Below are positions 4,201-59,605 of a DNA stretch of 64,000 nt, in pieces; the stretch's first letter is position 1; the number at the start of each line of letters is the position of its first letter. The DNA is from Apostichopus japonicus (Eukaryota; Echinodermata; Holothuroidea; Aspidochirotida; Stichopodidae). The notes under the pieces were generated by a model. That model worked only from the letters and a program-made list of their open reading frames with translations. It ran no database searches and was not told where the DNA came from. Made by a program: the position numbers and the translations under genes. The stretch is taken from assembly GCF_037975245.1 (NCBI RefSeq), contig NC_092575.1, forward strand, positions 6,118,501 to 6,182,500, in the 5' to 3' direction.

Positions 4201-7200
4201 TGTAAAAGTAAGTTGGCCTGATGTTTCGATCCTAGCAGGATCCTGGATCCAGGATCCTGCTAGGATTGGAACGTCAGGCCAACTTACTTTTACACATTAT
4301 TTCAGGACCGCTATATAGAGTGATGGAGGGCGATACCAATTTATCATCTTTACCTATTTGGGGGGTATTCAGTAACATTGCAATCTACATTTGATGTAAA
4401 CAACCGGTTGTCCGTTGAACAACCACCCAAGGCTGATTTTATTTTGTCCAAACAGAAATTTGGTCGTCCCTGACGACCAATTTTATATTGGCAACGTCTG
4501 ACACAAGATGTTCAATCGAATTCCATATGTAAGGCGCTTCATTCGCATACTTTACGAACAAGAACTGACAAGGCGGCTATCATAGGCATCTTTTTCCATC
4601 TTTACATGATATAGAAAACTTTTTCTCTTCCTTCGACCAATAATTCTTTTACGAGTCATCGACCCGGGAAGGATGAGAGCTACGCCTGTATAAACAAGGT
4701 TACATTTTGACCCCTAGTAAAATCAAATGACCTTTACCAATGATGAATGCAGCCAACAAATCACCAAGGGGCACATACATACCAAGGATAAATTTCATGC
4801 TGGCTGAATATGGTGATTTATCATGTTCTAAACAAGCCCAGGCCTCACATACACACACCTTAGATACACACATTTACATACACACACACACATACATGTT
4901 TGTAGTACATTCAGACCGAGGACCCCATTGTATTTTCCATTGTTCAAATCCACGTACCCTAACCTTAACAATACCCCATACAATAGAATTCTTCCGAGGA
5001 CGTGGTTCAAATCCTCGGTCAGATAGCAAAACAAACACACACACACACACATCATCATCATGTTCACATTGACACCTTTGACCTTTGGCTAGAAATAAAA
5101 AAAAATTCAACTATTTGTTATTGTAAGAAAGAGCAATTACAGGAAAAATTTGTGGGGCAGTGGAATACTGAATGAACATGTAAGAAGTATTTTGAAGAAA
5201 ATGCCACTTTCTTGTCAGACAAATACCCCAGAACCTGAAGAATGGAATAACATGATATGAAAAATATGTATTGTAGTAGAAGGAGGAGGAGAATTCAGTT
5301 GAAAACAAATGTGGTAAAAATCAATTATTGGCCTTTGAATTACATACACACCTGTAGGGGCGTCATAGGTGGGTAACCTACATACTGAAACATATGCTGT
5401 CATGTAAAGCAATAGGTATAGAACAATACAGAAAGAATTATTAACCAGAAAGCCAGTTGGCGTTTGTGATTCCTTGCCAATACAATTTACTCAAAATTCA
5501 AAGTAACTATCTGACTAAATGTAGAGCAATTGAGTTCAAATCTGTCCAAGAATTAAGTGAGAACCAGAAAAGATTTGTAGCAATCCCTTGTGGGTATCAA
5601 GCCATCAACCATGGCATTCACTTATAAGGATTTTACAGTAATATAGAATTATAAACCAAAGTGTTTCAATATCCAGAAAGAACAGTGTTCCTTCATGAAA
5701 TATAGACACATTTTACCAACTTTGAGCTAGCAAATTCCTTTAATAATTGTAGAGAGTTACATGACATTGTTCATAAACTGTGAAATATTTTGAGAAAATG
5801 CCCAAGTTTTTCACTAATTGAGATAACCTGTTGACCCCTTGAAGCTCAGTGAGAGAGAAAACTGATAGGAGGTTAAAGGACATGTTTAAAGCAAGAGTAA
5901 GAACTCTGAAGCAGATTTCTTTACCTGAATGCCAGGTATGTTTCATTGAAGACCTATCGAGCCCTTCATTGAATTAACTTGAACTGACCTAGACCATCCT
6001 ATGTTCACCAAATGAAAATCATAGCATTGGAGAATTTCCAGATTTATTGTAGCTCTACCAATTTCAATAGGATTCTTGGACAGCCGATGTAGGCGGGGTT
6101 AAGGCTATTATTCCAGTAAAAATGAGGGTGTGCAACAAGAGATTTCAGTTTTGGTTTCGATGACAATCTAACCTATGCATTCATGCGGGCGGAGAGTGTG
6201 TATGCGTGTGTGTTGGGGGGGGGGGTGTAACGCCTCGCTTGTAAATACGATATCTCAGGAAGTGAAGCTTTGACCAATCTAATATTGGTGTATATGAGTA
6301 ACACATTGGGTAGAAGAACCCTTTTGTTTTGTGGGTAGGTCAAAGATCATTTTGAGTCACCAGGGGCCAAATAGAAAAAACCTTGTAAAGACGATATCTC
6401 AAGGATGTAAGCTTAAACCAATATCATATTTAAGTTCGTGAGTAGGGGACCACATTTAGGAGCAAAAGCCTCTAGTTTAATGTGGAGGTCAAAGGTCATT
6501 TGGGTTCACCAGGGGTCAAATAGTGTAAACCTTGTAAACACGATATCTCAAGAAGGGAATGTTGAACGAATCTCATATTTAGTATGTAGTTGTTAAACGT
6601 TCAGTACAATTTTTTATTGAGATCAAAGGTCATTTTGAGTCGCCAGACGCCAAGTTGTGGAAACCTTGTTTATAAGCTACAGTATCTCCCACCGACCAGC
6701 CTATCAGATTTAGAGAATACCTTTTTTTTCTCTTAGAGAATAAATATATTCTTGGCAGAGAAAAAATATTTTTTGTGTTAGAGAATATATATTTTTGACA
6801 GAATATTTACTATAAGAGAATATATATTTTTGCACAGAATACATATTTGTTATTAGGAAAATACTTTCTGTACGCCTGGAGAATATATAAATATATACTT
6901 TAAGGGAATAAATATAATTTTCAGGGAATATATATGTGTAAACAAATATGTCTAAAATGTATTTTTGAAGTTAACCATGTTTGTATTTCGCAATTACAGC
7001 ATATATATATTTGTATGTATATATTCCGCTTTCTCGCGCCATAGCAATTGTTCGGGGGAAATTGTCCGGGGGGGGGGGGGGAATAGTCCGGGGGGAAATT
7101 GTCCGGGAAGGTTATTGACCGGGGGGGAATTGTCCGGGGGGAAGTCGTCCGGGATGGGAATTGTCCGGGGGGGAATTGTCTGGGGTGGGAACTGTCCGGG

Positions 7201-10200
7201 GTGGGAATTGTCTGGGTGGGAATTGTCCGGGGGGTAATTGTCCAGGGCGGAGTTGTCTGGGGGGTAATTGTCCGGGGGGTAATTGTCCAGGGGGGAGTTG
7301 TCCGGTCACCCCTCGGTCAGAATACAAAACAAACGCACGCACACGTGTCTTTACCATCGCATAGGCAGGGAATAAAAAAATAAAATGAACTTAAGGGAGT
7401 TGGAGGATACTGCATACAGATCTCAGGTTGTTTTCTTTGTACACAAAGGCACCCAGAAAGTTGTAGGTTTCCATAGGATCAATAACATCAAATTAAAACT
7501 AAGAACGAGGTAATGTTGTATTGGAAATGCACAACAAATTGGCACAGATTTATATGAGGCCGTCATGTTTTCCAAATCGTTCACTTCTTTCCATTGGCCT
7601 TTATTACTGAACTATATACTGCAACATACATTTTCTAGACTCTAGGTGGACCGTTACACAAATGTAATAAAAATCAAGAAATTCTAAACACTACAGTATT
7701 GGAATTGTATAATAGACTGGGCCCTCATTAGAATGTAACCCCAGAGGTGGTTTAGTAAGCCTTAGGAACTGTGACTGCTGTGCTTAATGGACCATCCTAG
7801 CATTAAAATGTTTTGATCCCTTAAAAGTGTTCATGGTCTGATAAGCAGGTCTGAAAAGAAGGTGGGGGGGGGGGGGGGAACCAGGGTTAATAAGAGGCCA
7901 GGTGAAGTGGGAAAAAGAATAACTATTTTATAATATACTTAAGGAAAACTGAAGACACAAAATGGGACTCACATCTCTGTGTATAAATATTATTTTTGCT
8001 ACTTTTGGCAACTAGAACTCTTGGATGCACGTTGCATTAAAAGACGTTCGGTCAATTTCTGCTGCACGCATGAATGCGACATTACATTCATTAACCGTTA
8101 CATTTACCCCTTTATAATTAATTTCCAACTGGAATTTTCCTGACTTGCTGCACACATCAGATACTGTACAAGATTATTGGAAATAGTCTATTAATTGCAG
8201 ATAATAAGCCAGCAATTCAGGGTCTTATGTTAAATGTTAGGAACTGAACTCATGCAATGTTTTGACTGTCCATTGTTACCCCTACTTATCATGTGTTTAT
8301 GTTCCTAATGTCTTCTGACAATAACATTGAAGGTGCCATTTTTTTCTACTGGCAAACTAACATCTAGAGATGGTTTATTACATTCAGTACCATCAGATAC
8401 ACCAAAACATAGAAACCTTGTTAAAGCTTCATTATGCATTCATCTCAATGGTCTGAACAATCCCCTTTTATTTTATATTATTGTGTAGCAAATAAACACA
8501 CAATCATGACAATGTACCCTTTTGCCAAACTTTTGGCCCATTCGTAGAGATCGAGGGAATGCAAAATTCAAACGATACATTGTTGTCCCATCAAAACCAT
8601 CCCATTTAAAACAGTAATAGTACCCATTCGTGGGCTGATTTTAACCGTCACAATTTAACATTAGGCTATTTACTGGGTTATGGATTTTACACACTCACTA
8701 AGCCTAGCACCATTACATCATGTGCGTCGAGCAAGAACTGGCCATTTGAAGGGTCACAATTCACGAATACCTCCGAGTCGTTGTTTTCGCTAGCTGGTTT
8801 TAATCCATGACTGTACCAGGCAGTAGAGAGTGAAACAAAGAATTGTTCACTCATCCATTTTCAAGAGACCTAATATCTCATCTGGCCATGCCTGCATCTG
8901 ATTAATAGTATGACCTTACCGTGGTGTCTGTTAGCACAGGCTACAGTTTTATGGTCAAAAATTTCTTTCACTCCAATCTTTGAGAATAGGCCAAAAATTT
9001 TGCCAGAGAGAGTACTTTGTCATGACTGTGTGATTATTAATTACACAATAATACGAAAAAGAGGTTGAAAGAGTTAGGGATCAGTTAGGTCGTATTTATA
9101 ATGATATGCATAAAGAGGCTAGAGCGTGCTGCAAACTACTCACTTGGTGCTGGGGTGGTGTTGGTTGTCCAGGAAAAACTGGTGCAGCAGGAGGTGCCAT
9201 AGGGTTCTGAGGGGGCTGACCAGTTGGGCTCTGTGGAATTAAAATTAGTAAAAAATTAAAAATAAATAAAGTTAAAAAAAAGAAAAAGATTTTTGTCACT
9301 GTTCCTGGTGTCATGGAGGGGATCAGGGTTTATTCAATTTTATTGCTCTTTAACAAGCATTTAATCGATGAGAATGAAACTTCTTTCACAAGCTGTGAAA
9401 TTTGAGAACGAGGGGGGGGGGGGGAGAATATAGGTAGGGCCCAGTTTGACTTTGCAACCCAGAGTGCTTACAAGAAACAAATATTTATTTCGCCAAATAA
9501 GAATTAAAAAAAAAAAATCTAGAGTGGAACTTCTTTGGAAAAACGATCCAGCTCAATCTTTAATACATCAAACTAGTCTGTCTGGTCATCCATTTAAAGA
9601 ATGACTTAAAGAATGACACAAAATTAATTTGGACATGTATGTGTTGTTGAGCACTGAGAATCACTCCTATCAGTCCATGGTGTGTACCTACACCACTTTT
9701 AAATTTTGAGAAATGTCCTTTAAATATCTGAGGCTCATCAATTAAAGTGGCTGGAATATTGAGTCTAGCACTCATTTCCTCAGTTGCAACAGGAAAACAA
9801 AGACTTTTATGACATGCATACAATACATTTATACAAATTTGTCAAGGACAAGTGGGTATTGAATGTCATCCAAGCAGTGCTCTGCTGTTTACGTGTAGTT
9901 TTCAAAAATGTTTTTGCTTGTTACTCGAATTGATAAAACAATAGACAAATGGATAGCACTGAGGATTCATCTTGATCATCAAATAACCCTTAAAGGGTGT
10001 GAAGACTCGCACACAAAGAAACGTCTCATGCCGGTAATCTGACCTAGTTTCGAATGAGGGGTAACAGAAGTGTTAGACATCCCCATCGATCCCAGAAAAT
10101 GCACACATTGCTTGCTACTATCGGTAATTAGATACTAGTGTACAGTCAATACATACAGCTACGGTCAATACACACAACACAGTGTACATAGCAGCATGGA

Positions 10201-16200: not shown

Positions 16201-19200
16201 CAAAATGTTGTCTTATTTTGACAAAACTAGCAGATTATGATGATGATACTGTCTAAATAAAAAGATTTAAGGTGACATTGAACCACCAAATTTCTAAGTG
16301 TTTACCTTGCACATTGTTGTGACCAGCAGTAGTCTGTTGCATATTCACCATGTTCTCTTTCTTTGCTGAATAAGGAAGAAAAATGGCGACAGCATACGAT
16401 AAAAAGATGCAAACAATTTAACATCATATTGTAGAGCTGAAAGCTAATTGTATCATAAATATAGCGTGGATGTAATGAAAATCTTCACAATAACATTGTC
16501 GACATTGACAAGATACAGTATCACACACACTCGTATAAGAAACATATTATATAAAAAACAAAAACAACTGGAACTTTGTTTTCTTGTAGAAACAGTAAAG
16601 AAAAATAACAAATATGTATGTAATAAAATAAGATCATATTAAAATATTACCACTCAAAATACCAAGTCAAACATACTTTTTGTCATAAAGAATGAATAAA
16701 ACAAGAAATTTATATCAAAACAATATACATTTTGTGCACCTTTCTTTGGCCTGTAGTAATAATCCATAAGGGTTGTCCACCTCTGACTCTAAAGATGTTT
16801 ACCATCAAGAAACACTACTATTCCAACGGGCTCGCTTTCCATTCAGCACTGTTGCTCGCACAAAATATGACTGACTGTTATAAATTATGTGTAAGATAAA
16901 GTACACGTATGTGTGTATGCCACACAATACAGTAAACCTGAACAGATTCAGTATTTTGATTGAATATTTTTTTACACAGTGAATATCCCACCAGCACAAA
17001 AAATAAAAAAAGTGAAGGCCACTCGCATATTAAAGTTGCAACACAACCAGATGGGGAATAAGCTTCTATCTTCAATGGATCAAACAACAGTATAATACAG
17101 TCAAGCCTAGCAGCAAATTTGGTCATACAGTTGGTGTGGATATTAATTTTTTTTATTTTAATGATATACCTAAAGGTGAGCCACATATCATGTGTTGCAT
17201 AATGCGACACTCCAAGAACAAAAGAGGGTTCTTGTACACACTAAGGTGGTGGGTCCACATGCAGCCAATGAATTTCATCCAGCCTTTACTTTTTGAATTA
17301 CAGTTTTGATTTTGATTTTGATTGACCTCAAATGACCTTTCACTGCCACAAAAAACAATATGGGTATTGCACTTAACCAAGAAATTTCCTCTGTCACTAA
17401 CCCTAAGACTTCATGCTGATGTCAAAAGCAGACATTGCTCGACTAAGTGCATAGTCACATGACATGATGAGTGAAACTTTATTATGGAGATGTTGTACCG
17501 ATTTACTTGTTTCCCTCATAACCTGAACCAGGAAGACAACTTTTTAGATTATTTTGTACCCTACACAGATGATATTGCACAGATTCTGACAATTTGTTTT
17601 CTTAGGTGGGGTATGTGTGATACTTAAGCTGATTGGGTTGGGTGAGGTAGGGGGGGGGGGTTAAAAGTGCACTGACCATGCAATTAATCACAACATACAA
17701 CCACTCTGATTAGGTTTAGGAAATCACCCCTTCTTAAATGTTGCGATTCAACCATGTTTGGTAAAAAATTAACCCAGTACCCTCAAGCAGTAGCCTTTCA
17801 CAACTGTTGACGGACGGACGGATGGACAGACAGACAGACAGACGGAGGCATTGCCATGACTATATCTCAACTAGTGGAGTTTAAAAGCTACTGATGAGGA
17901 GGAAATAAGGTACTCAGTGAAATTTCAGGTACTGTAGGACTTATTCAAAAGATACTTCCGTAATGCAGTCACATTCTATTGACTTTTCACTCTGCTTTAT
18001 CGCTTTCAATAATTAATTAATGATTAATACTCACCACCACTGATATGGGTGAGAAGATTCTTCACCATGGTGAAATACTCCTCCTGAGTGGAAAAAAACA
18101 AGCAGGTATCGAATCATAATAATTTGTAATAGTTCCGAATAATCTTCTACGGCCTGAATTGATCATTAAAAAAAAGCACTTCGTTGCTTCTCGGATGTCT
18201 CCGTGATTCGATGCATAACTAATTCAGATTTCTGTTATAGCTTCACGTTGGTCAATAAGGGGTTAATCAACGGTCTAGCATGCGTTACTCACAGGATTAA
18301 TGCACGATCGGGGGATAATGCAAGCGATGCACGAGGGCGGAGCCCGAGTGCATCCAGCGATAGCATTAACACCCGGAGTGCATTAATCATGTGAGTAACG
18401 CACGCTAGACCGTTGATTAACCCCGTTCATTCATACACTACCATTTGTGTGGGGGAAAAATCATAAAACAAAACATTTTTGGTTACATATAACCGAAGAT
18501 TTATTAAAGTGATGCCCCGTAAGTCGAATTAACGATTAACAACCAGCATAACAATAATGTACATGTGCAATTATAAAGTAATACTGAACGATAGTGAATA
18601 ATTATAAAGGAAACGTCTTTGAAAGGCTGTCATTCATAAAAGATGAACCATAATAACATTTTAACTAATGTTTGGCAATATTGCGGCCATAAAACTATTT
18701 TTGAAAGGTCTCAATAACAAGGAACTACAAACAATTACTAGTTGGCTTCAACATATCAATACCCTACAGCTTCTGGTTCCCATAGCAACCATTCTAGGGA
18801 CAAACATGTACGTATGGTATACAGTCATACGATAACATAGTAGGCCTTGTATTGAACACGTACACTCACTTGAACGTACACACTACACAGTGCTTGGCAC
18901 TGCGGTCGTTTAACTTTAAATTTATAACACTATGAGCAACATAACGGCCTTGCGAACATTTAATTACGGACAGATACTGGATATATTTAAACTCAAAGCA
19001 TCCACAACTGTTTGGTGTTTTAATACGGATATAACTATGAATTTTGGAAGTAAACATTCACAGGACTTTGGAAAGAACATTTGGAAAACAGTTTGGACAT
19101 GTTAGACGTTTCAGCCCTAACAGCAGCAGTAACGTTAATGTCATTGTTGGAGGCAACAGCTGTGCAGCCTACACTTTGGCCTAGACTCGAGTGCGGATCC

Positions 19201-22379: not shown

Positions 22380-22725
22380 GACTCTGAATGCTGTTTGCTA
22401 TGCTCTGAGCCCCTATAAACCCCTAAGCTCAGACAGGTCAGGTCCCAAAGAGTAGTGGTATCATGCTGGGATAATATTGGTTATTTCTATGGAGTAAGAT
22501 TTCCAAATCCCCAAAATATGTGCAAAACTGGGGGGAGAGGGTGTTAAAAGCTTTAAAAAAACACAAATTGATCAGCACATACTGTAGCTGAAATGGATTC
22601 AAACTCATGAAATATGTAACTCTGCCTCGCTGCAAAAACTTTAGGTTGCCTGATGTATCGTTGCTAGTAATATTTGAAGGTGCGTCAATTACGACTACGA
22701 AGGTGCGTCAATTATGAAGCCTTTA
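22380..22725 (-). repeat. Decayed copy related to the 31-kb transposon
   Basis: About 340 bp resemble 31377-31705. Shared blocks include a tract around CAGGTCCCARAGAGTAGTG, a tract encoding TYFMSLNPFQL on the minus strand, CGTTGCTAGTAAT, and two GGTGCGTCAATTA boxes followed by TGAAGCC. On the minus strand this copy stays open from 22635 to 22438 and contains YFMSLNPFQL and FGDLEIL; the 31-kb copy has the same words split by a frame break. No terminal repeats were found here. Confidence 0.65.
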
Positions 22726-23999
22726 CTACAACTTGTACTAGTGTTGTAGGCCTAGACACATAGCAACTGTTGGGACCGCAAGCATTTGCCTACACATTGA
22801 CAACATTGTTGGGAGCACCCTTGGGGCTACCATACTTCTTAACATTATTACTGAGTGGTGTTCAAAACCCCTGCTTGAGTTTGAGCAAAGCATCAAATGT
22901 TTAACACGAAAGCTAGGCCTATACATGTTAGTAATATAGCGTACACACTAGCCTAAACTACAGTCTGAAGTTGTTGGTAAATCAACTTAAACACATATTT
23001 CGAAAGAATTAGGCCAAAGCCTGAATTTAAGAAAGGAAAACGTTCAACAATTGCGCTACGTGAGTATATCTGTTATGGTGACGTGAGCTTTGATATCACC
23101 CCAGTGAGGAAAACAAAAGCTTAGTCTCTTTTTTTCTCTCCCACGAATCTCTGTATACGGCTTGGCCATAGAGAATGGGCTCTGCACAAGTGTGTTTTGA
23201 AGCGCCTGCTTTTAGTATTGCCAAGCAGCTAGTGATAGCAAACGATGCAAAATTTAATCAATCAAAATTTACTTCCTAACAGAAAAATGATTAAAAATAT
23301 ATTTATACAATATTTATACATTTTTGTCTCTTTAAAAGAACCCAATAGTTTTATGTCTACACATTATAGCGGCAAAGTAAGTTGTTTGCAAGAACGAGAC
23401 TGTCATGTCTGCGCCCTTTGTTATGATGTATTCAGCGGTGTATCATCAACAATTGTATTCCCTAACATTCGCAAGTCACAATTTGAAGAATTGGAGATAA
23501 TCCTACACGGTGCGTGCAAAATGGCAGTAACGCATTTGCATATTAAAGCTTGAAAGCAATGTTAATGGCATGGCCTAAATTCATTTTGGCTAATGATAAA
23601 ATCATAAATTGCTACAACTGCAGCCTAGCCTTAGCCTAGTAATGTAGTATTATATTAAGTAAGTTAGGGCACAAGTTAGACCTAGCCTGCCTAAGTTATG
23701 TAACTGTTACTGAGTGTTGTACAGACTCATTAGGTAGTTTGCAAACGATTTGGCTGTGCGCCTAGACATATCCTAGCATTAACGGAGATACAAACCATAC
23801 CACCACCACTGAGTGATGAGATGACAGTCAAGCAAATTCTCAAACATCTTATACAAATCTTATGGATTTGGGATCAGTCTGGTCATGATATCATTGAGCC
23901 ACATATGCTTCACTAGTACTCACTAGTCCTAGGTATTGTATTTGTAGCCAAACCAATAAGAACATAATAAATCATGAAATCATGATTATTTTGTTCTTA

Positions 24000-24470: not shown

Positions 24471-24776
24471 ATTATATCTTTACACATTGTTTTCAATTTG
24501 CACGTTTTGCTATATCATAACAACTGAATTATTCCCGCATTGTGAATGTTATGATCAATTGATGTTTCCTTTTCCTTGTCTAAAACTTGTGCAAATACCA
24601 GTATCCCCAAATCCCAGTCTGCTTTTGTATGAATTGTTATACTTTCGAGATAGGACTTGTATATGATTCTACTGACCAATCAATTAATTTGGGCTTTTAT
24701 TTTGTCTCAAAACAGAGCAGTTCTCCAAAGGCAGTAAAAGGAGTTTTGCAAGTTGGATCAGCGAGACGTCTTTGAG

Positions 24777-25269
24777 ATGGAAATGTCCATCAAATTATTT
24801 CTTTTTTCAACATTGGCATTGGGTTTTGCAATAATTATAGCTTGGTACTACCCTAAGGAGTTCCAGTTAGCCAGTTTTTCACCATTAGGATCCATATTTT
24901 CTTTAGTATCTGTTATTGACTTTGTTTCTAAGAAGAAAGCAGCCACAGCTGAAAGAGCAAATGAACAGATGAAGAGGAGTCCCGCAGAAGGGGACAGAAT
25001 TTTCTCATCCGATGAATTAGCTGCCATGACAGAAGATCCAATTCTTCTTGGTTTCCTCGGAAAGGTTTTTGACGTCACCAAAGGCAGTAAGCATTATGGA
25101 CCTGGTGGAGGTTATCAGTTTTTCGCAGGGAAAGATGCTACCAGGGCATTTATTACGGGGGACTTTACAGAATCTGGATTACTCTCTGACATTAATGGAT
25201 TGGAACCAAAGGAAGCTCTTGAAGTGAAAACATGGCTGGATTTTTATGAAAAGGACTATATTTATGTGG
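24777..25269 (+). CDS. CYB5D2: Neuferricin exon 1
   Basis: This exon encodes the N-terminal hydrophobic anchor and most of the cytochrome-b5-like domain, ending ...DYIYV plus one base. The donor is GTGG|GTAAGT, phase 1. Translation read through the donor stops at 25340. Confidence 0.9.
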
Positions 25270-26427
25270 GTAAGTATCACAAAGTTTTCATCATTGTACA
25301 TTCTGTGAAAGGTAATGGTCGTCAATCGATTAAGGTCTGAACTTATTTTTTCCATTTCTGTCAGGGAGTTCTTAAAACAAATCTTTATTCCATTTATTCC
25401 TCATTCTATCCTATTCATTTCTTAACCTGTGGCTCCCTTTAAAAAAAAAATTCTATATCATAATTACAATTCAAATTGATTTTCTAATATGACATAATTG
25501 ATGAAACATTTTAATTCAACAATTTTTTTTTTTTAATGAGCATTTTTAATGCTTGTAAGTCTGTTTAATATGTCAGTGTGTTGAGGTAAATAATCTATTA
25601 ATTTTTTCATCTTGCATATTGGGAAACTCCATGGAAACCTGCTACCATCAGAGGTAAATAATCTATTATTTTTTTCATCTTCCATGTAGGGAAACTCCAT
25701 GGAACCTACTACGATGCTGATGGTAGACCGACAGAGAAGTTAATATCCGCCCACCGTCTGATAGCAGAGGGAGAGAAAGAGAAAGCTGCAAATGATGCGG
25801 ATAAAAGAAAATTTCCTCCTTGCAACTCAGAATGGAGCGAGAAGACCGGTACCAGGATTTGGTGCTCAACCAGGAGGTAAGTCGGGAAGGGGGGGGGGAG
25901 GTTGGGGATCTGTTTTTGCGTTAAACTTTCTGTCCAACCATCTTTATCTGTTGTTATTAATATTTATATATCTAGATTTCCATGGACATGTCCTCTTTTG
26001 CTATGTTATGTGTGATTATTGCAAAATTTTAAATGACTGGGACGTTTGGTAGTTCTGACAACTTGTAAGAAAGACAGCAGCAACAAAAAACTTTCTCAAC
26101 AGTGATTGAATAATAATAATAAAAAAATTATAAATTGCTATGTTGGGTAAGATTAATTGTGCTGTGTACATGTTTCTGACCTCACATGATTATTGCTTTT
26201 ATCTAAGCTTAACTCTGTTTTCCAAACCACTCTCTCTATTTAACTCAAACAGCGGTGGCATTTCTCGGGACTGGACGGGATTTCCGAGGAAATATTTCCA
26301 ACCCGGAGCAAAGTCTTTCAGATGCGCCTGCGTACCCGAGCAGGAATTGGACAACCCTCATTTCAAAATGTATGACAACTGTGACCCCAAAGCAATATCT
26401 TGTAAACTTGCAAGCAAAAATGAATGA
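24777..26427 (+). CDS. CYB5D2: Neuferricin (cytochrome b5 domain-containing protein 2), complete, 3 exons
   Basis: Neuferricin belongs to the membrane-associated progesterone receptor (MAPR) branch of cytochrome-b5-like haem-binding proteins; in vertebrates it is linked to neurogenesis and haem or steroid handling. Three exons join in frame into 284 residues (human protein about 264). Residues 5-23 are a hydrophobic N-terminal signal/anchor segment. The b5-like domain starts near residue 74 (RIFSSDELAAM) and includes GFLGKVFDVTKG, the Tyr in KHYGPGGGYQFFAGKDATRA, and the TWLDFYEKDYIYVGKL end typical of MAPR proteins. The C-terminal part has the cysteine-bearing family motif with RIWCSTRSGG and RDWTGFPR, ending after CACVP. 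ATG 24777 is used; a second ATG two codons on (24783) is an alternative. Haem binding is inferred from family. Confidence 0.9.
25690..25876 (+). CDS. CYB5D2: Neuferricin exon 2
   Basis: The acceptor is CCATGTAG and the donor CAGGAG|GTAAGT. It reads GKLHGTYYDADGRPTEKL through FPPCNSEWSEKTGTRIWCST. A near-duplicate of the acceptor-side sequence (GGGAAACTCCATGGAAACC) lies 67 bp upstream at 25620-25638, a possible decoy acceptor region. Confidence 0.9.
26253..26427 (+). CDS. CYB5D2: Neuferricin exon 3 with stop codon
   Basis: The acceptor is CTCAAACAG. The joined frame reads RSGGISRDWTGFPRKYFQPG and FRCACVPEQ, the family's C-terminal cysteine motif, then about 30 poorly conserved residues to TGA at 26425. 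Confidence 0.88.
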
Positions 26428-31400: not shown

Positions 31401-32817
31401 GCCTCTAAGCTTAGACAGATCAGGTCCCAGAGAGTAGTGTTGTCCATGATATTGAGGAAATGTTGGTTATTTTTAGGGTGCAAGATTTCCAAATGCCCAA
31501 AAACTGAACGTACAAAACCGGGAGGAAGGGTGTTAAAAGCTTAAAAATTCCACAATTTGGTCATCAAATAGCTGAAATGGATTCAAACTCATGAAATATG
31601 TAATTCTGCTTGACTGCAAAAAGTTAAGGTGGCCTGCTCTATCGTTGCTAGTAATAATTGAAGGTGCGTCAATTACGGGGGTGCGTCAATTATGAAGCCT
31701 TGACTATACACTAAACTGTTTTGCGTATATTCATTCAAGGCTGAACTCGCGTCGTGAAGTTGATTTTGGTGTAGGCCTACCCATTCCACGAAACGAATTC
31801 CGATTTCAATAGAACGGCTGACGAATCTTGGATGGCGTAAACACGAAACCGATAGAATGTAGCGTATGTATCATAAGTAAGGTCAACATGTTATCCAAGC
31901 ATTCAAAGTAAAAGTTAGGGCGTTTGCAGGGAAACCGCATAACAAGACTTTATTAAGTGTCAGTGTATAACTCAGTGTATGTCTTCGAAATATCAAGCGT
32001 TTGATGCTGACGTCACGAGCAATCTGATTGGCTGAAAACTCCGTAATTGAGAACCTGTTTGGGAAAAAAAAATTCGCAGCCGGGACCTTTATCATCTCAA
32101 CTCGGTATATAGGTGACCAAACTTTCACGCAAGTATAGTCTCTTACCTCTATATCTATGTCTTGGAACAATCGAATACAAAGTTTAACTTGACCATCGAA
32201 TTTCGTGAGTGGGAACAGGGGAAGGGAGACTTACCCGGTGTGATATTCGGAGATTTTGGAACAAACAATTAGAGACGGCAGTGTTAGATAAACACCCTCT
32301 GGACCTCAAAGGCACTATACTACATACCCTCCTTTTTTTTTTTTTTGGTAAGTTTGAAAAAGTTGATATACTCTGGAAGGGGTGATGGTGTGGGTGGGGG
32401 TTATCATGGTGCATGGCATTTGCCTCAACGTCCTATCGGGTGATCCAGTATACTGAAGGAGGCGGGATGGGTGGTGTGAGAGACAAGGGCCTTTGAAAGC
32501 GTTACAATCCGCGTTCCCTCCCTGGTTTAACGTGCATCGCATTCACTCACCGCTACTTGTGCATTATCACTGCCATCATTTTTGTGGTACCAGGTGCAAT
32601 GATTCCAATTTGTTGACACAGTTTCGGGAGAACCAGTATCGCCTTTGTTTCCGCGTGGTCCTTTCGATCCCTTGGGGCCGTCAGCGCCGGCAGCACATTC
32701 CTATTGGGAATGCAAGCAATCGTGTCAATTCTTTCAACAACGAGTCAAAGGTCGTCAGTATTCGCCCCAAATATGATAGAATGTCAGATAATGTGCGCAT
32801 GCACTCATTCTATAACT

Positions 32818-36625: not shown

Positions 36626-37314
36626 TAAGAAATTATTGATTACTTAAGGGTTCTTATCTGGTGCTATATTTTGCGACTTGACGTAACTTTGCTTTCAAGA
36701 ATTTTCGGGCTTAGCCTGTCCGATATTTATGTTTTTAATTGAGGCGGATCAAGAAGTTATAAAAAAAATGGAAATTAACCCTTTTTCTTTGATAATGTTT
36801 TCAAATAATTAAGGGTCTTCAGATGAAATTTGGTGCTATCTGGTGATTATCCATTATGAAAGAACAATGTGATGTATTGCGCTTGAATAGTTGGGCGGAA
36901 GATACTCAAGCCCTCCATCCAAGAGGGTTTGGGGAAAGTTTACAACGTGAAGAAGAGTGTTGAAATTTATGTTAATACAGGGTAGTAGTGAAGTTTAAGC
37001 ACTAGTAGTCCAGGAGCCCAGAAGGTTTATTCAGCTGAAGAGGTACAAAAGGTTTGGTGGCCTGATTGTGTTGGTAGGTGACCAAGCTTCAATAAAATGT
37101 GTTGCTGCCGGGACACACCCTGCATGGTAGGTGAGGGGGTCACAAAATAGGGGGGCAAAATATGCTTTTATTTAGCTGAAGAGGTACAAGCACACAAGTT
37201 TCTGGGTTTTATACCCAGGAGGGTACCTTGCATCTTGGTGGCAATGACAGCAATATCTGACTGCATGGGGCCCCAGACAGTAGCCCGAAAGGGGCCCGCC
37301 CATATGGTATTATT

Positions 37315-39140
37315 CAGCTGAAAAGGTACAAGGGTGAATTCTTTTGCATTTGAACTATTACACATTGGGGTGTACTAAAACACTAATGACAGTAACTTTG
37401 TCCTGCATAGGGGCCTAAACAGTAGCCCTAAGAATGGGCCATGCGGTACAACCAGCTGTGGCTAATTTATCTAGCTGAACAGGTACATGAACAAAACTTG
37501 TTGGATACTGCTCCCAGCAAGACTAATTACATTGCTGTAGCAACAACAGCAATATCTGACTGCATGGGGCCCCAGACAGTAGCCCAAAAGGGACCCGCCC
37601 ATATGGTATTATTCGGCTGAAAAGGTACAAGGGTGAATTCTTTTGCATTTGAACTATTACACATTGGGGGGTACTAAAACACTAATGACAGTAACTTTGT
37701 CCTGCATAGGGGCCTAAACAGTAGCCCTAAGAATGGGCCATGTGGTACAACCAGCTGTTGGCTAATTTATCTAGCTGAAATGGTACATGAACAAAACTTG
37801 TTGGATACTGCTCTCAGCAAGACTAATTACATTGCTGTAGCAACAGCAGCAATATCTGACTGCATGGGGCCCCAGACAGTAGCCCAAAAGAAGCCCGCCC
37901 ATATGGTATTATTCAGCTGAAAAGGTACAAGGGTAAATCCTTTTGCATTTGAACTATTACACATTGGGGTATACTAAAACACTAATGACAGTAACTTTGT
38001 CCTGCATAGGGGCCCAAACAGTAGCCCTAAGTATGGGCCATGCGGACCAACCAGCAGTTGGCTAATTTATCTAGCTGAAAAGGTACATAAACAAAACTTG
38101 TTGGATACTGCTCTCAGCAAGACTAATTACATTGCTGTAGCAACAACAGCAATATCTGACTGCATGGGGGCCTAAACAGTAGCCCTAAGAATGGGCCATG
38201 CGGTACAACCAGCTGTGGCTAATTTATCTAGCTGAACAGGTACATGAACAAAACTTGTTGGATACTGCTCCCAGCAAGACTAATTACATTGCTGTAGCAA
38301 CAACAGCAATATCTGACTGCATGGGGCCCCAGACAGTAGCCCAAAAGGGACCCGCCCATATGGTATTATTCAGCTGAAAAGGTACAAGGGTGAATTCTTT
38401 TGCATTTGAACTATTACACATTGGGGGGTACTAAAACACTAATGACAGTAACTTTGTCCTGCATAGGGGCCTAAACAGTAGCCCTAAGAATGGGCCATGT
38501 GGTACAACCAGCTGTTGGCTAATTTATCTAGCTGAAATGGTACATGAACAAAACTTGTTGGATACTGCTCTCAGCAAGACTAATTACATTGCTGTAGCAA
38601 CAGCAGCAATATCTGACTGCATGGGGCCCCAGACAGTAGCCCAAAAGAAGCCCGCCCATATGGTATTATTCAGCTGAAAAGGTACAAGGGTAAATCCTTT
38701 TGCATTTGAACTATTACACATTGGGGTATACTAAAACACTAATGACAGTAACTTTGTCCTGCATAGGGGCCCAAACAGTAGCCCTAAGTATGGGCCATGC
38801 GGACCAACCAGCAGTTGGCTAATTTATCTAGCTGAAAAGGTACATAAACAAAACTTGTTGGATACTGCTCTCAGCAAGACTAATTACATTGCTGTAGCAA
38901 CAACAGCAATATCTGACTGCATGGGGCCCCAGACAGTGGCCCAAAAGGGCCCCGCCCACATGGTATTATTCAGCTGAAAAGGTACAAGTGTAGATCCTTT
39001 TGCATTTGAACTATCACACATCGGGGTATACTAAAATACTAATGACAGTAACTTTGTCCTTCATAGGGGCCCAAACAGTAACCCTAAAGATAGGCCCTTC
39101 TGCCCAACCAGCTGTTAGCTAATTTTTCTAGCTGAACAGG
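37315..39140. repeat. Left-arm tandem array, ~300-bp units made of two ~150-bp halves
   Basis: Units begin with CAGCTGAAAAGGTACAAGGG at 37315, 37614, 37914, 38371, 38671 and 38971. Each ~300-bp unit has a second half starting CTAGCTGAACAGGTACATG and ending GCCCGCCCATATGGTATTATT. The palindrome TTCAGCTGAA or a variant recurs about every 150 bp. The spacing is broken once, at about 38165, where a ~757-bp block is duplicated. Confidence 0.92.
37408..38922. repeat. ~757-bp higher-order duplication within the array
   Basis: 37408-38164 and 38165-38921 are near-identical, including unit-specific variants in the same order: CAGCTGTGGC, then GCTGTTGGC with GAAATGGTAC, then GCAGTTGGC with GAAAAGGTACATAAAC. 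The junction at about 38165 fuses TGCATGGGG of one half-unit to GGCCTAAACAG of the other, as expected for unequal exchange between half-units. Confidence 0.85.
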
Positions 39141-39143
39141 TAC

Positions 39144-39512
39144 TTCATTTTATTTCATTTTATTTGTTTCTTCACAATATTATTTACATATTTATATAAC
39201 ATATATACAAGAAAATAGCATTGGTACAGAAAATTTACAATCATATAAATATAAGGAAAAAATTAGAATGAATAATATTGTGAAAGGGAAGTGTTGTACA
39301 AAAACTCTGGAGACAGGGTACAGCACTCTCCGATACAAATAATGATATATAATTAATATATAGACATATAAGCCCCACCCACAAATACAACGTCCCCTCC
39401 CCTGCCGTCCCAACCATATTTTTCTTCCCACCCAAACCTCCGCATTGCTTACCATCACTCCTCTCCCTTATCCCACACTCTGCACCCCTTCCCCACCATC
39501 CTTACCCACACA
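39144..39512 (-). mobile_element. AT-rich retroelement-like insertion in the left arm
   Basis: The array motif AGGTACATAAACAAAACTTG is split: AGGTAC ends at 39143 and ATAAACAAAACTTG resumes at about 39516. The inserted ~370 bp begin TTCATTTTATTTCATTTTATTTG, which on the minus strand is a simple A-rich tail, as at the 3' end of a LINE or SINE. A coding region was not recognised. The exact right edge is uncertain by a few bases. Confidence 0.65.
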
Positions 39513-39515
39513 CAT

Positions 39516-40030
39516 ACATAAACAAAACTTGTTGGATTCTGCTCCCAGCAAGACTAATTACTTTGCTGTAGCAATAACAGCAATATCTGCCTGCATTGTG
39601 CCCCAGACAGTGGCCCAAAAGGGTAGATCCCTTTGCATTTGAACTAATACACATTGGGGTATACTAAAATACTAATGACAGTATGTTTGTCCTGCATAGG
39701 GGTCCAAACAGTAGCTCTAAACATAGGCCCTGTTGCCTTATCAGTCTTCGACTGATTTAGTAGAAGGTACACAAATTCAACTTGTTGGAGACTGCCCCTA
39801 GCAATATTTGTTATATTATTATAGCAATAACATCAATATTTGCCTGCATGGGGCTCCAGATAGTGGTCCCGAAAGGCCCATATGGTGTTATTCAGTCAAA
39901 GTAATACAAGGGCGAATCTTTCAGCATTGATGCTGATACATTTAGGTTTACCCAAGTAGGTCTACCAATGACACCAACTTCGTTCTGCACTGGGGCCCAG
40001 ACAATGTAGCCCAACATAGCCCCTCCTTTC
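39516..40030. repeat. Degenerate inner units of the left arm
   Basis: The ~300-bp units continue past the insertion but are increasingly diverged (e.g. CTGCCTGCATTGTGCCCCAG, then CTGCCTGCATGGGGCTCCAG with extra indels). They fade out near 40030. Confidence 0.8.
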
Positions 40031-42130
40031 ATGTTTATTGTATCTTGCCACGATTGGACGAGCAGTGAGAGAAAACAGAAATAATATAATTACAAGAGGT
40101 TAATGATTTATTGAACCTGGTTAACATCGTTATTTGTCTTCTTCGTTAGAAATCCAGTGTAACGTACCTTATAAGTGGATTGCGAGGCAATTCAAAACTG
40201 TGAATGCCATACCTGAACGCTATGATAGGTGCACTTTTTGAAATGTAATTGAAAATACTTTGTGTAGCCAGAATTGTATCTTTCAGAATGACCTAAAACA
40301 TTGTACTGGCCCTAATTAACTCAAAGTTGGTCTCCATCGTTGTAGCATTGAACTGATATACTTTGATTCAAATTGCTCAATCATTGATCGTAATGATTTA
40401 TCAGTGGTAATCACATGAAGGCATGTTAACATCATCACTTGCTAAAATAACATATTTACATTTTTGGTTAAAATGATAACATATAGTAACATCCATAATA
40501 CATGTACACTAGGATAATGTACCGTAAACAGTCAATTTGACACCTTTTTGTATATCTTAGGCAACAATGATTTGCTTTATAAGATCAAACGTACAGCCAC
40601 CTGCTTACTCCCATGCATGCTATTTCACTAATACTTGTATAATTTTGATAACATAAAGTTTAGCACACACTGCCACACAGGATTATAACGAAGGAGTGTT
40701 ACTAGATGCCCATAGCTAGGTACAAAAGTTACGAATATACAGAAAAGTAACAAGTAGGCTACTGTAAGTCAGTGGAATTTTCTGAAATGTAAGCTGCTGA
40801 CATTATTGTCCATTGTCACAGCAGTACATGGAAAATACAGCACTTGACTTAGCGAGTAATATTTTGCAGTAATTTTTTGCCAAATGATGTCAACCAAGAA
40901 AAGGCCAAATAGCAAAACTACATCAATGTTCAACAGCCTGATAGGTTCTGGGTTACAGGTTTTGTACATGTCAAGCAGATGAAATGTTGCTCCAGTGTGT
41001 GGTGGAAGTTTTGTTTTTAACCACTGCAAACAGATGGGTTTTATTACGTAATAACTATGAAATCCATAAGTTCTTGTCAATAGAGAATATAACCTTTCTG
41101 CCCGTTATATTGTGTTGATGTATGTCACAATATAATGATTATTTACGACATAGAAAGCGCTCTAAGGCCTGGTGAATGTTTTCCTCAAAACAAAATAATC
41201 GATCTAGACAAAAAAATTCTCAACTAGGCCTAACGTTAAGCTAGTTCAACTGTTTAATTTAATATATTTCATGATGAATAAACTGACCGTATAATTCAAC
41301 ACAAAGTTACACTATGCTGGACTAGATTGTCCGTCCACTCGTTCGTTGACATACATGTGAACGTACGTACGTATATGTGGGATATGATATACGTACATAG
41401 GCCTAGGCCCTACATCATGTTCCGAGAGGCGCGGTTGCTATGGAAGTACGAAGAATGTTGATTAACTGTCCATGTTAATATTTGTGTTCATGTTAATCTA
41501 TAATCTTTCTAATTGCTTCCATTCCCATGTTTGATGCTTTCATTTTACTGATAGCCGTAAAATTGTTGTGAATATTCGTGATCATTTGGGCGTTTTTTTT
41601 TTGTTTTTTTTGCACATGTGCATTGTTGTTTTGGTAGTTAATAAACTAATTCTACGGGGTAACACATTTATCAAATCTGCTAATTCTTTTTTGTATATTT
41701 TGCCTCTTTATTGACAAAAAATCATAAGGTATGAATGAACGGAGTTAATCAACGGTCAGCTTGGGTTTATCTATAGGATAATGCACGATCGGGGGTTAAT
41801 TAGACTACCGTGATTAAACACAGATACTTTTATAATAATGCAAGCGATGCACGAGGGCGTAGCATCCAGCTTGGCCCTAATTATAAATACTACCCGAAAA
41901 TCCTCAAATTATGAATAAAATAATATTGTTTGGGAAAAGGGAAGCTTGTCAATTGAAAGAGATGGGATATAGTTATTTATGGCAATTGCTAGAAATGTGG
42001 AACCAGCAAATGTTATCATTTTTCTGTGAAGGTACCCCCTTAACTAGAATTTTATAGCTAAACTAATGAGTATTTGAGAAACAGAAGAATTTGTACTCAC
42101 CAAGATTTGATGATTCAATTGTTATCCGCC
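40031..42130. other. Core of the 6-kb element
   Basis: This is a 2.1-kb AT-rich stretch without tandem repeats. It contains a 103-codon minus-strand frame (40769-41080) of no recognised family, and a fragment of the GTTAATCAACGG repeat family (41735-41880). I see no transposase motif. Confidence 0.5.
41735..41880. repeat. Fragment of the GTTAATCAACGG / GATGCACGAGGGCG repeat family
   Basis: The sequences GTATGAATGAACGGAGTTAA, ATAATGCACGATCGGGGG and ATGCAAGCGATGCACGAGGG recur from the fold-back element at 18259-18424, with an unrelated insertion between them. Confidence 0.75.
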
Positions 42131-43002
42131 GTCTTGCCCCATGCAGGCAGATATGCTGTCATTACTGCAGCAATAGAGTTTATCTTGCTCGAAGCGGTAT
42201 CCAACACGTTTTATTTATGTACCTGTTCAGGTAGGGAAATTAGCTAACAGCTGGTTGGGCTGCAGGGCATATATCTTTAAGGTTACTGTTTGGGCATATA
42301 TGAAGGACAAAGTTACTGTCATTAGTATTTTAGTATACCCCAATGTGTAATAGTTCAAATGCAAAAGGATCTACCCTTGTACCTTTTCAGCTGAATAATA
42401 CCGTATGGGCGGGCCTCTTTTGGGCTACTGTCTGGGGCCCCATGCAGTCAGATATTGCTGTTGTTGCTACAGCAATGTAATTAGTCTTGCTGGGAGCAGT
42501 ATCCAACAAGTTTTGTTCATGTACCTTTTCAGCTAGATAAATTAGCCAACAGCTGGTTGTACCGCATGGCCCATTCTTAGGGCTACTGTTTAGGCCCCTA
42601 TGCAGGACAAAGTTACTGTCATTAGTGTTTTAGTACACCCCAATGTGTAATAGTTCAAATGCAAAAGAATTCACCCTTGTACCTTTTCAGCTGAATAATA
42701 CCATATGGGCGGGCCCCTTTTGGGCTACTGTCTGGGGCCCCATGCAGTCAGATATTGCTGTCATTGCCACCATGATGCAAGGTACCCTCCTGGGTATAAA
42801 ACCCAGAAACTTGTGTGCTTGTACCTCTTCAGCTAAATAAAAGCATATTTTGCCCCCCTATTTTGTGACCCCCTCACCTACCATGCAGGGTGTGTCCCGG
42901 CAGCAACACATTTTATTGAAGCTTGGTCACCTACCAACACAATCAGGCCACCAAACCTTTTGTGCCTCTTCAGCTGAATAAACCTTCTGGGCTCCTGGAC
43001 TA
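42131..43002. repeat. Right inverted arm of the 6-kb element
   Basis: The reverse complement of the left-arm units runs for about 870 bp, roughly two and a half ~300-bp units, plus the shared ~300-bp outer terminus. Inner units near 42131-42300 are more diverged than the outer ones, as on the left. Confidence 0.9.
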
Positions 43003-43139
43003 TAGCGGTTCATGCCAGGGCCTCTGTGACCTTGTTAGTGAGAAAGCAACTGCATGGTTATTGTGATGGTCGGTGGGAAGACGTTGAACTGATGAACATG
43101 ATTTGTTTCGTCCTTTGAATAAAAAGAGTTTTGTTTGAC

Positions 43140-49928: not shown

Positions 49929-50370
49929 GTCCACTGTGCTGTGGATGATGTTGTACATCACATGTCTGACAGTAAGAACATAAAGTTTGATATGCTTGAA
50001 TCACCTATGTGTAACTACCATTTAATGGTATCTCCACTGCATTGTGGATGTTGTACATTACATGTCTGAGTCTGACATTAAAAGAACATATAATTTGATA
50101 TATATGGTTGAAATTACCTATGTGTTACTACCATTTACAGGTTCTCCACTGTGCTGTGGATGATGTTGTACATCACATGTCTGACATTAAAAGAACATAC
50201 AGTGTGATTTCTATGCTTGAAATTACCTATGTGTAACTACCATTTAATGGTATCTCCACTGCATTGTGGATGTTGTACATCACATGTCTGACACTAAGAA
50301 CATATAGTTTGATATATACAGTATATGCTTGAAATTACCTATGTGTAATTACCATTTAAGGGTATCTCAT
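49929..50370. repeat. ~103-111-bp tandem repeat, four copies
   Basis: TCCACTGYRYTGTGGATGNT followed by GTTGTACATCACATGTCTGA recurs at 49931, 50034, 50145 and 50256. Copies alternate between ...GTGCTGTGGATGATG and ...GCATTGTGGATG, so the ancestral unit may be a ~214-222-bp dimer. Confidence 0.92.
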
Positions 50371-56390: not shown

Positions 56391-56834
56391 ACAAAATAAC
56401 TTCCTGCCGCTTTTGATATTACTTTTTGTAATTGCTCGCTCTAGAAACCCTTAAACTGACAGTGTTATTTTTATGATTATTTTTTTTCTTCTGCTCTGGT
56501 GCATCAAATATTGTGAATTAGCATTCAGCTGAGACTCGTCCCTCTGATATATGCTCTCATCCATGAATGTTTATCAGCGAAATATTTACTAATGGGAGCT
56601 GACTTGAGGGTACACACATAAAATGATAATTGTTGATGTTATAGTACTTGTTACATTGGTTATCTCTTAATGTTTTCTTTCTTTCATTTCTTACCTTAGG
56701 TGAGTTTCCTCTGATTTGAATGTCAAAGTGTAGCTGCTCTTATAAAAGATATAACATTGGGGAAAAACGTAGCCTTTTTATTTGGTCGACAATTTCTGAG
56801 TGACGTGGTTTCTTCAGAACCCCCCGAGTTAACG

Positions 56835-57652
56835 ATGGGTCGTTATCGCCTGCTTCATTTGATCATAACGGCGGCGGCAGCAGCTAGTCTGATGTTTTTC
56901 TTCATGCAGTCGGGTTGCAACGAACTCGAAAACGACCAATATCTAGAGAGGATGGTGCAGAAACAGCCGCACCTTTTAATCGACGAACAAAACGTGGAGT
57001 ACGAGTACAGTCGGACTATGCCGCTGATATTCATCGGCGGAATGCCCCGGAGTGGAACCACCTTGATGAGAGCTATGATAGATGCTCATTCGGACGTGAG
57101 ATGCGGAGAGGAGACTAGAGTCATCCCGAGGTTACTAGGGATGAGAGCTCAGTGGGAGAAATCTCCCAAAGAACATGCGAGATTAGAGGAGGCCGGCTTG
57201 ACGGGGTCCGTCATAGACGATGCCATCAGTGCTTTCATTTTAGAGGTCATCGCCAAACACGGCCGACCGGCCCCGCGGCTATGTAACAAAGATCCTTTCG
57301 TTCTACGTTCCACCAAATACGTCCATAAAATATTCCCCAACAGCAAGTTCCTGCTCATGATACGAGACGGGAGGGCCACGGTCCATTCCATCATCTCCCG
57401 TAAGGTGACGATATCGGGGTTCGATATAAAGAGTTACCGCGACTGCTTGAAGAAGTGGAATTTAGCTATAGAGAGTATGTACAACCAGTGTCTGGAGGTA
57501 GGGCCAGATTGGTGTATGCCGGTGTTTTACGAACAACTCGTGCTCCATCCGGAGGAGTGGCTCAGGTCCATCGTCAAATTCCTGGACTTGGATTGGGATA
57601 GCGCCGTTCTTCATCACCAGGATTACATAGGGAAAGAAATATCACTATCTAA
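56835..57652 (+). CDS. TPST: TPST exon 1 (catalytic domain)
   Basis: The acceptor CTTACCTTAG ends at 56699, so 56700-56834 is 5' UTR and at least one non-coding exon lies upstream. The donor is TCTAA|GTGAGT, phase 2. The exon's GC content is higher than the surroundings. Confidence 0.93.
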
Positions 57653-59605
57653 GTGAGTATCCTATTCCTACTCCACACTATTTGAATGTTTTTCATACAA
57701 GGCATTGTAATTCAGATGAAATCTGCAGTTGGTAGTATATATATTTATTGCAAAGAAAATATATTCAAAATGCATCATTCATTTAGCAGTGAAATCACTT
57801 AGCACAGGTGGGGGGTGTGATATAGGCACACTTTTCACTTTGAACTGGTTAAGTTTACTCATAATCAATTTTCTATATTGTTTATCGACATTGCAATGTG
57901 TCTTATACTGTACCTACATGTACATCCGTGTTTAATTATAAACAGTGGATGAAATACTGAATGACAAGGGAGGGACTCATAACTTTGCCAATCCCTCAAA
58001 GAGGTGTTTTTTAATTTCTGAAACCCTAACACTCCATATGTTGTGTTATATTCGAGCAGAAATCTATTTAGTTACTGTGGGGGGGGGGGGGGGGTGGAGG
58101 AGGAGTTGTAATTCAGCCTGTTGGTTAAAGATATTAATGATGAAATTAAAATTCCAAACTGCTACTTTATCTGTTTTTAGTAAAGTTTGCTGAACATTGT
58201 TAAATTGATATCTAAAATAGCCTCAACCCACTCAATTTGCAATTCACAGCTGTTAGCAGGCAGTCAGTGAAATCAATCATTTATCGGGATCAATTAGTTT
58301 CAGATGCGAATTATTTTCTATTTTGGAGCTCTTGTGATAGACATCAAGAGTCATTTACAATTATGGATGCAACAATTAATAATAAATATGTTTACTCCAC
58401 GAATGGCCAAATGATAAATACTAGCACTACAGAGGGGCTGCATGATCCGTGAGTGAATAAATCAACATAAAAATCCCAAATTTGACGATAAAATCATGGC
58501 TAATGCCCGAAACAGGTGTGATTTTTGACTGGGTCGGTATGGTAACAGATTGTATGGCTCTACATCTGTTGTAGTGGTTTAGCCAGATATGTTTCTTAGT
58601 TTGAAAATATAGGATTGGCTTTGTCGACAGCCAGCTGTTGCCTCTTCACTCAAGGTAACGAAAACCGTCCCACATTTACTGAACGACCAATGGCAAACAG
58701 GTCGCAATTTTGTCATTTTGCCGTTTCACCTTGATCAGACTTGTGACAATGAGTGTTTAAGTCCATTGTCACAATGAAACACACTAATCAATTGAAAGTA
58801 CTGTAACTATGTCATGGGATACTGGCGCTTTTACATTTTTAGATATTTATTTAATAATATTAATTATTATCTGTAACTGGCCATTCAAATCTGAAATGAT
58901 TGTATAAAACTATATATTACTGATATTTCATCTGGGTATAAAGTGTCTTTGTGTCGCAGAGTGGGTTGAGTAGTTGAGGATGCTAAATGAAATTAAAGCC
59001 AGATCTTTCATTGATTACAAAATAAATGTCTTTGACACTAACTTTAATGCAAGGTTTTGCCAGTTTCTTATTTGGAGTAAAAAACTTTTTAACTGTTTTT
59101 TTTCTTCTGTCCTTTCAGGAGAGAAAGATCTACAGACCAAGTAGTGAAACCTGTTAACATGGAAGGCCTTACCAAGTGGGTCGGTCAAATACCGCCCGAC
59201 GTCGTCCGCGATATGCCAGATTTAGCACCTATGCTGGAGAAATTGGGCTACGACCCGAGGGCCAACCCTCCAAACTATGGCAACCCCGATAATTTTGTCT
59301 TGAAAAATGAAGAGTTTATTCGACAGCACAAGGACCTCTTGGATGAAAAAGTCAAGGAAGTATTTGGGGATAAGGGGGTGGACTTGGAAAATAACCCTGC
59401 AGCCGATGAAAATCACCCCCTCATGAGGCAACCAGGTGATCGACCACGGCCTATGCCGCGGAAGGAGAGAGGACCGGACCAAAATCCTAGAGAGAGACCT
59501 AGAGAGAGACCCGAGCCAGAGAGAGGTCAGGGACCACTATTGGGAAATTTAAAAAATAAAATGAATAAATTTGGTAAGAGAAAAGAGGGTGTGGCACTTA
59601 GGTAG
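56835..59605 (+). CDS. TPST: Protein-tyrosine sulfotransferase (TPST), 2 coding exons
   Basis: TPST moves sulfate from PAPS to tyrosines of secreted and membrane proteins in the trans-Golgi. The joined frame gives 434 residues (human TPST1/2: 370/377). It is a type II membrane protein: residues 6-24 are the signal anchor. Key sites are the PAPS 5'-phosphosulfate loop PRSGTT (71-76), catalytic Glu 92 in [11 protein letters not shown], the 3'-phosphate site around [13 protein letters not shown] (173-185), and cysteines 90, 150, 204, 219 and 227. Their spacing matches the two human disulfides (C90-C150, C219-C227; 204 unpaired or unknown). Exon 2 has [20 protein letters not shown] and the family end AKLGYDPxANPPNYG-like motif. 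ATG 56835 is chosen; the in-frame extension upstream has no ATG. Whether it is orthologous to TPST1 or TPST2 cannot be told. Confidence 0.93.
59119..59605 (+). CDS. TPST: TPST exon 2 with long charged C-terminus
   Basis: The acceptor is CCTTTCAG. It reads [20 protein letters not shown] through ANPPNYG, then a non-conserved tail rich in Arg, Pro and Glu ([14 protein letters not shown]) and a stop at 59603. A consensus-like donor, AATTTG|GTAAGA, at 59573 could instead join to a further exon, making the last ten residues intronic read-through. Confidence 0.88.

Follow-up and report, generated by a model that had tools for sequence, protein, structure and literature searches.

Transposons of the foldback type, with long inverted ends built of tandem repeats, have been described in Drosophila and in root-knot nematodes. 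The terminal inverted repeats (TIRs) of Galileo, a member of the P superfamily in Drosophila, are described as long and internally repetitive, with tandem repeats that expand independently in each arm; in the F copies the TIR length varies through repeats of ~210 bp, again in each TIR independently (PMC3573991), and some Galileo TIRs contain tandem repeats and other transposable elements (PMC4168063). The THAP domain of Galileo is reported to footprint positions +63 to +80 and to bind additional sites within the tandem repeats of the TIR, and its authors suggested that multiple sites give specificity for a short motif (PMC3688188). Tetris, a foldback element of D. virilis, is described as having a flanking domain, an outer domain in which repeats of ~220 bp stand in tandem, an inner domain and a middle region without apparent coding capacity; the flanking domain has a 37-bp stretch in common with the repeats, and a single duplicated unit distinguishes two alleles (PMC4079207, where reported foldback elements of sea urchins, the TU elements, are also cited). 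In Tm1, a Mutator/Phantom-type foldback element of root-knot nematodes, the TIRs are composite, their length varies with the count of a short motif, and the paired TIRs of one element are given as 93.15% identical on average (PMC3169594). Here we describe an element of approximately 6 kb, apparently without genes, and with mirror-image, repeat-built arms, at positions 37006-43002 of a 64-kb stretch of the genome of the sea cucumber Apostichopus japonicus (NC_092575.1, positions 6,118,501 to 6,182,500; hereafter the window). The entire analysis is based on this single genomic copy, and Galileo, Tetris and Tm1 were likened to it by published architecture, not by sequence.

With a probability of roughly three in four, we consider the element to be a non-autonomous, decaying, foldback-type cut-and-paste DNA transposon, the arms of which are arrays of probable transposase-binding sites enlarged by unequal exchange. 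The transposon reading is favoured because the ends are sharp and symmetric, the flanks are unrelated and TAG stands on either side, and because the order of units is largely common to both arms. An initial annotation of the window had likewise proposed a non-autonomous, array-armed DNA element, which accords with these ends, with the special kind of terminal unit found in both arms, with a unit order that largely agrees and with the failure to recognise a transposase domain. The parts of the element are as follows (L and R denote half-units of the left and right arm):

37003-37005, plus strand: candidate target duplication TAG (other copy at 43003-43005; alternative TA)
37006-37029, plus strand: left terminal tip TAGTCCAGGAGCCCAGAAGGTTTA, 24/24 identical to the right tip; the identity stops here
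37030-37312, plus strand: left terminal unit 0 (141 bp) followed by unit 1 (142 bp), both set apart from the A/B array, 99.3% and 98.6% identical to the right arm
37033-37047, plus strand: outermost left AGCTGAANAGGTACA box
37313-39126, plus strand: left array L2-L13, A (157-158 bp) and B (142 bp) alternating, with one A/B hybrid, L7 (38070-38226)
37404-38160, plus strand: 757-bp tandem duplication, copy 1 (copy 2 at 38161-38917), 2 mismatches in total over three segment comparisons
39144-39517, no strand assigned: foreign insert within B half-unit L14, with TAC on either side and TTCATTTTATTTCATTTTATTT at one end
39518-40027, plus strand: decayed inner left array of A/B half-units, ~73-93% identical to outer half-units in the longer BLAST matches
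40028-42135, no strand assigned: core with no recognised transposase domain, containing a decayed small element at 41741-41870
42136-42695, minus strand: right array of A (R2), B (R3), inner A (R4) and decayed inner B (R5)
42696-43002, minus strand: right terminal units 1 and 0 and tip

Both arms were found to begin abruptly at TAGTCCAGG (37006 and 43002). When the element was compared with itself using BLAST, the inverted arms aligned at 93.6% identity over 873 columns (37002-37870 with 43005-42136, E=0), and when the columns were binned by 25, each full bin on the inner side, up to 37599, had 23-25 matching columns, compared with 12 and 10 in the two bins lying outside 37001. Similarity between the flanks was at shuffle level (score 13.0, reached by 142 of 200 shuffles). 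The left flank finishes ...AAGCACTAG and the right flank opens TAGCGGTTC...; across 13 symmetric end positions and lengths of 2-12, the longest exact duplication was the 3-bp TAG, with ends TAGTCC, followed by TA, with ends GTCC. The inverted outer ends and the flanking TAG given in the initial annotation were thus recovered, while its exact end held as to the abrupt start and is ambiguous between these two versions of the terminus. An exact duplication of 7-10 bp is absent because the flanks of ~30 bp have no exact 6-mer in common; at none of the 13 end positions was there a duplication of 7-8 bp, as in Galileo and the P superfamily, or of 8-10 bp, as in the Mutator foldbacks Tetris and Tm1. 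Tc1/mariner elements duplicate TA and PIF/Harbinger elements TWA, and both were considered for a duplication of 2-3 bp: TA can be read with ends GTCC, and TAG is unlike TWA. An assembly artefact, with one arm read twice, is unlikely given that the arms differ in sequence and in flanks.

The arms have a tandem period of ~300 bp composed of half-units of ~150 bp and are unequal in copy number, in agreement with the annotated 150/300-bp units. From the end inward, an arm consists of a 24-bp tip, unit 0, unit 1, and then A (158 bp) and B (142 bp) in alternation. The feature common to all half-units was found to be the asymmetric sequence AGCTGAANAGGTACA, directed inward in both arms and recurring at intervals of 141-158 bp. 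The palindrome that had been annotated about every 150 bp does not recur at that spacing: the perfect palindrome TTCAGCTGAA was present in 9 copies, in 9 of the 21 boxes and 283-599 bp apart within an arm, and it was rejected as the repeated unit, the boxes of B and unit 1 not being palindromic. Allowing at most one mismatch, 21 copies of AGCTGAANAGGTACA were identified (15 of them exact), with 15 in the left arm (the last at 39130) and six in the right arm (from 42975 down to 42232, minus strand), while outside the element no copy was present in the window at up to two mismatches and four places matched at three. Anchored on the box, the left half-units are spaced by 141, 142, 157, 142, 158, 142, 158, 157, 142, 158, 142, 158, 142 and 158 bp, and the right arm has six half-units.

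Comparison of the unit types 0, 1, A and B showed that columns 1-18 match at 15-17 positions, whereas columns 19-60 match at 9-22 of 42; unit 0 and A agree at 17/18 in the box and then at 9/42, and unit 0 and B at 15/18 and then at 14/42. The top 18-mer common to the four unit types had 15 matches, compared to at most 11 in 60 mononucleotide shuffles. A second motif after the box was no better than chance (ungapped 14-mer test, 9 matches against at most 9 in 60 shuffles). As the box is conserved among unit types while the adjacent columns match poorly, it is a probable binding site; the annotated idea of regularly spaced binding sites is thereby strengthened, although the site shifts from the palindrome to the directional box.

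It is possible, if doubtful, that the element is a transposon in which the box has no role in transposition, being instead a host-factor site or a relic of the common descent of the half-units. A and B do have further sequence in common besides the box, CAGCTG is an E-box-type core, and a spacing of 141-158 bp is about the length of one nucleosome. However, the identity of the box is far above that of the adjacent columns, including the comparisons of unit 0 with A and with B, and the core of the outermost box is 27 bp away from either end, a plausible position for a transposase site.

Unit 0 was only 47-58% identical to the remaining half-units in a multiple alignment, and unit 1 resembles B across its final ~80 bp. 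Compared arm with arm, the tip is identical at 24/24 positions, unit 0 has 1 mismatch in 141, unit 1 has 2 in 142, the A pair L2/R2 has none in 157 (plus one gap), the B pair L3/R3 has 4 in 142, the inner A pair L13/R4 has 10 in 156 (plus four gap columns) and the inner B pair L14/R5 has 25 in 114 (with six gap columns in addition, of which one stems from a base omitted in the alignment input). Identity between the arms therefore declines inward from 99% to 78%; the outermost 464 columns are 99.4% identical (3 mismatches), which differed significantly from L13/R4 (Fisher test, P =1.1e-4) and from L14/R5 (P =5e-16). In a tree of A half-units, L13 and R4 were grouped with support of 100/99, and R2 was grouped with L2, L4 and L9 (98/94), L2 being the nearest; outer and inner A units were therefore distinct before the arms separated. 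The simplest reading would be a common order of 0-1-A-B-A'-B' in both arms, on which the left arm would have nine extra half-units (L4-L12, if L3 partners R3). This excess may reflect a gain of all nine on the left or a partial loss in the right arm.

Five of the nine extra half-units reflect a 757-bp duplication, in which 37404-38160 recurs as 38161-38917 with 2 mismatches in 757 (1 in 66, 1 in 600 and 0 in 91) and which appears to be recent. The junction unit L7 is a hybrid, with a B-type front like that of L12 and an A-type back like that of L2, as expected from unequal exchange or slippage between non-equivalent half-units. The left arm had been annotated as ~3 kb long; the array is present, but it is interrupted by the 374-bp insert at 39144-39517, beyond which it carries on in the A/B pattern, with small deletions, from 39518 to about 40027. 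The minus strand of the insert shows an A-rich tail-like end (AAATAAAATGAAATAAAATGAA), and the insert is possibly a 5'-truncated retroelement. No comparable inner portion of the right arm was found past 42136 when the element was compared with itself using BLAST.

Satellites normally show tandem expansion and decayed edge units, and both are observed here. A local satellite array (units 0-1-A-B and so on) that was copied in inverted orientation by segmental duplication, and never was a transposon, would account for them, and in a single copy symmetric outer ends alone are no proof of transposition. We nevertheless consider this origin quite unlikely: both arms stop at an identical base, within special units that are not part of the array, TAG stands outside either end, and an outer identity of 99.4% above an inner identity of 78-94% is not predicted by one date of duplication alone. 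A rolling-circle element of the Helentron/HINE kind, such elements being described as carrying satellite-like tandem repeats, as in oyster, is highly improbable, since the repeats are described there as central (PMC7492417) whereas the arrays here occupy the two arms, oriented oppositely, and the long ends match each other (no search aimed at Helentron end motifs was made).

No transposon domain was recognised by Pfam in 30 of the 33 stop-to-stop open reading frames (ORFs) of at least 38 amino acids overlapping 39140-42140; the other three (39372-39521, 39802-39930 and 39946-40068, plus strand) were outside the scan, and short fragments of a broken transposase could escape it. No THAP or P-type domain was found among the same 30 ORFs of this copy. 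In one of the scans the minus-strand ORFs were entered with the first codon trimmed and the frame unchanged. Two weak matches fell below the cut-off (NFACT-C, E=0.097; DUF1482, E=0.053). The stretch at 41741-41870 of the core was found to be a decayed copy (83 of 90 aligned columns identical to 18259-18358) of a small inverted-repeat element at 18254-18436 of the window, which has 47-bp arms that are 96% complementary (GGGGTTAATCAACGG...CCGTTGATTAACCCC).

Several observations count against the transposon and binding-site reading given above. It has one copy only behind it, and the short TAG/TA duplication is possibly due to chance (1 in 64 per fixed boundary for three bases, with 13 boundaries tried). 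A and B are also alike near their 3' ends (CTGCAT...GTAGCCC), so that the box is not the sole conserved part, and the decayed inner units past 39518 have poor boxes, so that not every unit is constrained, although poor boxes are to be expected in parts that are out of use. The difference between L3/R3 and the outer units was not statistically significant (P =0.056), and the partner of R3 is ambiguous: 4 mismatches separate it from L3 and likewise from L8, 5 from L5 and from L10, and the tree of B half-units is weak (78/81).

If the element is such a transposon, a transposase supplied from elsewhere in the genome would most likely bind the directional box AGCTGAANAGGTACA that opens each half-unit, and with many boxes at each end even a short motif would provide the specificity or affinity needed to pair the two ends. 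Through slippage between half-units, or their unequal exchange, the array would lengthen or shorten independently in each arm. Repair or conversion between arms would probably keep their outer portions alike, as we infer from the inward loss of identity, which fits gap repair or conversion acting mostly at the outer ends. A more speculative and rather unlikely extension is that the element represents a foldback lineage outside P and Mutator, with a 2-3-bp duplication, in which arrays of directional 15-bp boxes at near-nucleosomal spacing serve as an adjustable loading ladder; unequal exchange would then tune the length of the arms, and conversion from arm to arm would renew their outer parts. 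The reason for kilobase-long repetitive transposon ends is not fully settled; the clear candidate site found here, one directional box per ~150 bp, together with a recent-looking expansion step, makes it testable whether binding sites are multiplied by the repeats. Should the duplication of the family be 2-3 bp, a further superfamily would have to be counted among those in which foldback ends arose.

Further copies of the arms were sought within the window using BLAST, and none was found at E 1e-3 or better; the window also had no Rfam match at the gathering threshold. The exact patterns CTGCATGGGGCCCCAGACAGTAGCCC, TAGTCCAGGAGCCCAGAAGG and CAAAACTTGTTGGATNCTGCTC were each absent from the viral contigs searched, while TTCAGCTGAANAGGTACA was present in one stretch of the viral contigs and in 13 stretches of the prokaryote genomes, the host being in neither set. 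Among the matches listed when 37006-39143 was compared with these 14 stretches using BLAST, all were 18-24 bp long, and we estimate them to be due to chance. Five strings of 14-15 bases from the element did not occur in the literature text searched, which, with repeat databases outside the search, is no proof that the element is undescribed.

Elsewhere in the window, an exon at 56715-57656 encodes a protein-tyrosine sulfotransferase (Pfam Sulfotransfer_3, E=6.8e-56) and matches PDB structures of protein-tyrosine sulfotransferases (best E=6.8e-103). The ORF at 59093-59605, which had no Pfam match, was placed in the same gene by eye only, and the ORF at 24738-25340 carries a cytochrome-b5 domain (Pfam). 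The sulfotransferase exon and the cytochrome-b5 ORF point to DNA of an animal. Other repeats in the window comprised a self-complementary stretch of 102 bp at 4197-4298 (94%, self-BLAST), a dispersed direct repeat at 22420-22728 and 31402-31706 (82% over 318 columns) that is unrelated to the element, an inverted dispersed repeat of 126 bp at 1-126 and 9989-10114 (89% identical), and an imperfect tandem array at 49930-50368 with a period of ~112 bp and about four copies.

The element has the architecture of the foldback type, with long inverted termini, tandem repeats and unequal copy number. The annotated 'unknown family' holds for the superfamily, while the architecture is a known one, that of Galileo, Tetris and Tm1. 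Sea urchin TU elements, for their part, reportedly have outer arms built of 15-bp repeat units and an 8-bp target-site duplication (TSD). As in Galileo, the TIRs are long and contain tandem repeats, the copy number of which would change independently in each arm, and the THAP sites within the Galileo TIR repeats provide a direct precedent for the box as a binding site. Unlike Galileo, for which a TSD of 7 or 8 bp is given in D. willistoni (PMC4168063) and a footprint at +63 to +80, the element has TAG or TA at most and a first box core that starts 27 bp from the end, and a P-type transposase domain was not recognised in the 30 of 33 core ORFs scanned. The box, which is common to units 0/1 and A/B, is like the 37-bp stretch of Tetris; unlike Tetris, described with a TSD of 8-10 bp and repeats of ~220 bp, the element has alternating half-units of 142/158 bp and TAG/TA. 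In Tm1, motif C is mostly 14 bp in consecutive units and the TSD is given as 9 bp (PMC3169594), whereas here the box recurs every ~150 bp. Judged from its sequence, the element would work like Galileo or Tetris but need not belong to either, the duplication lengths of P and Mutator not being those seen here. The design is a known though uncommon one, and the element is one decayed copy of it.

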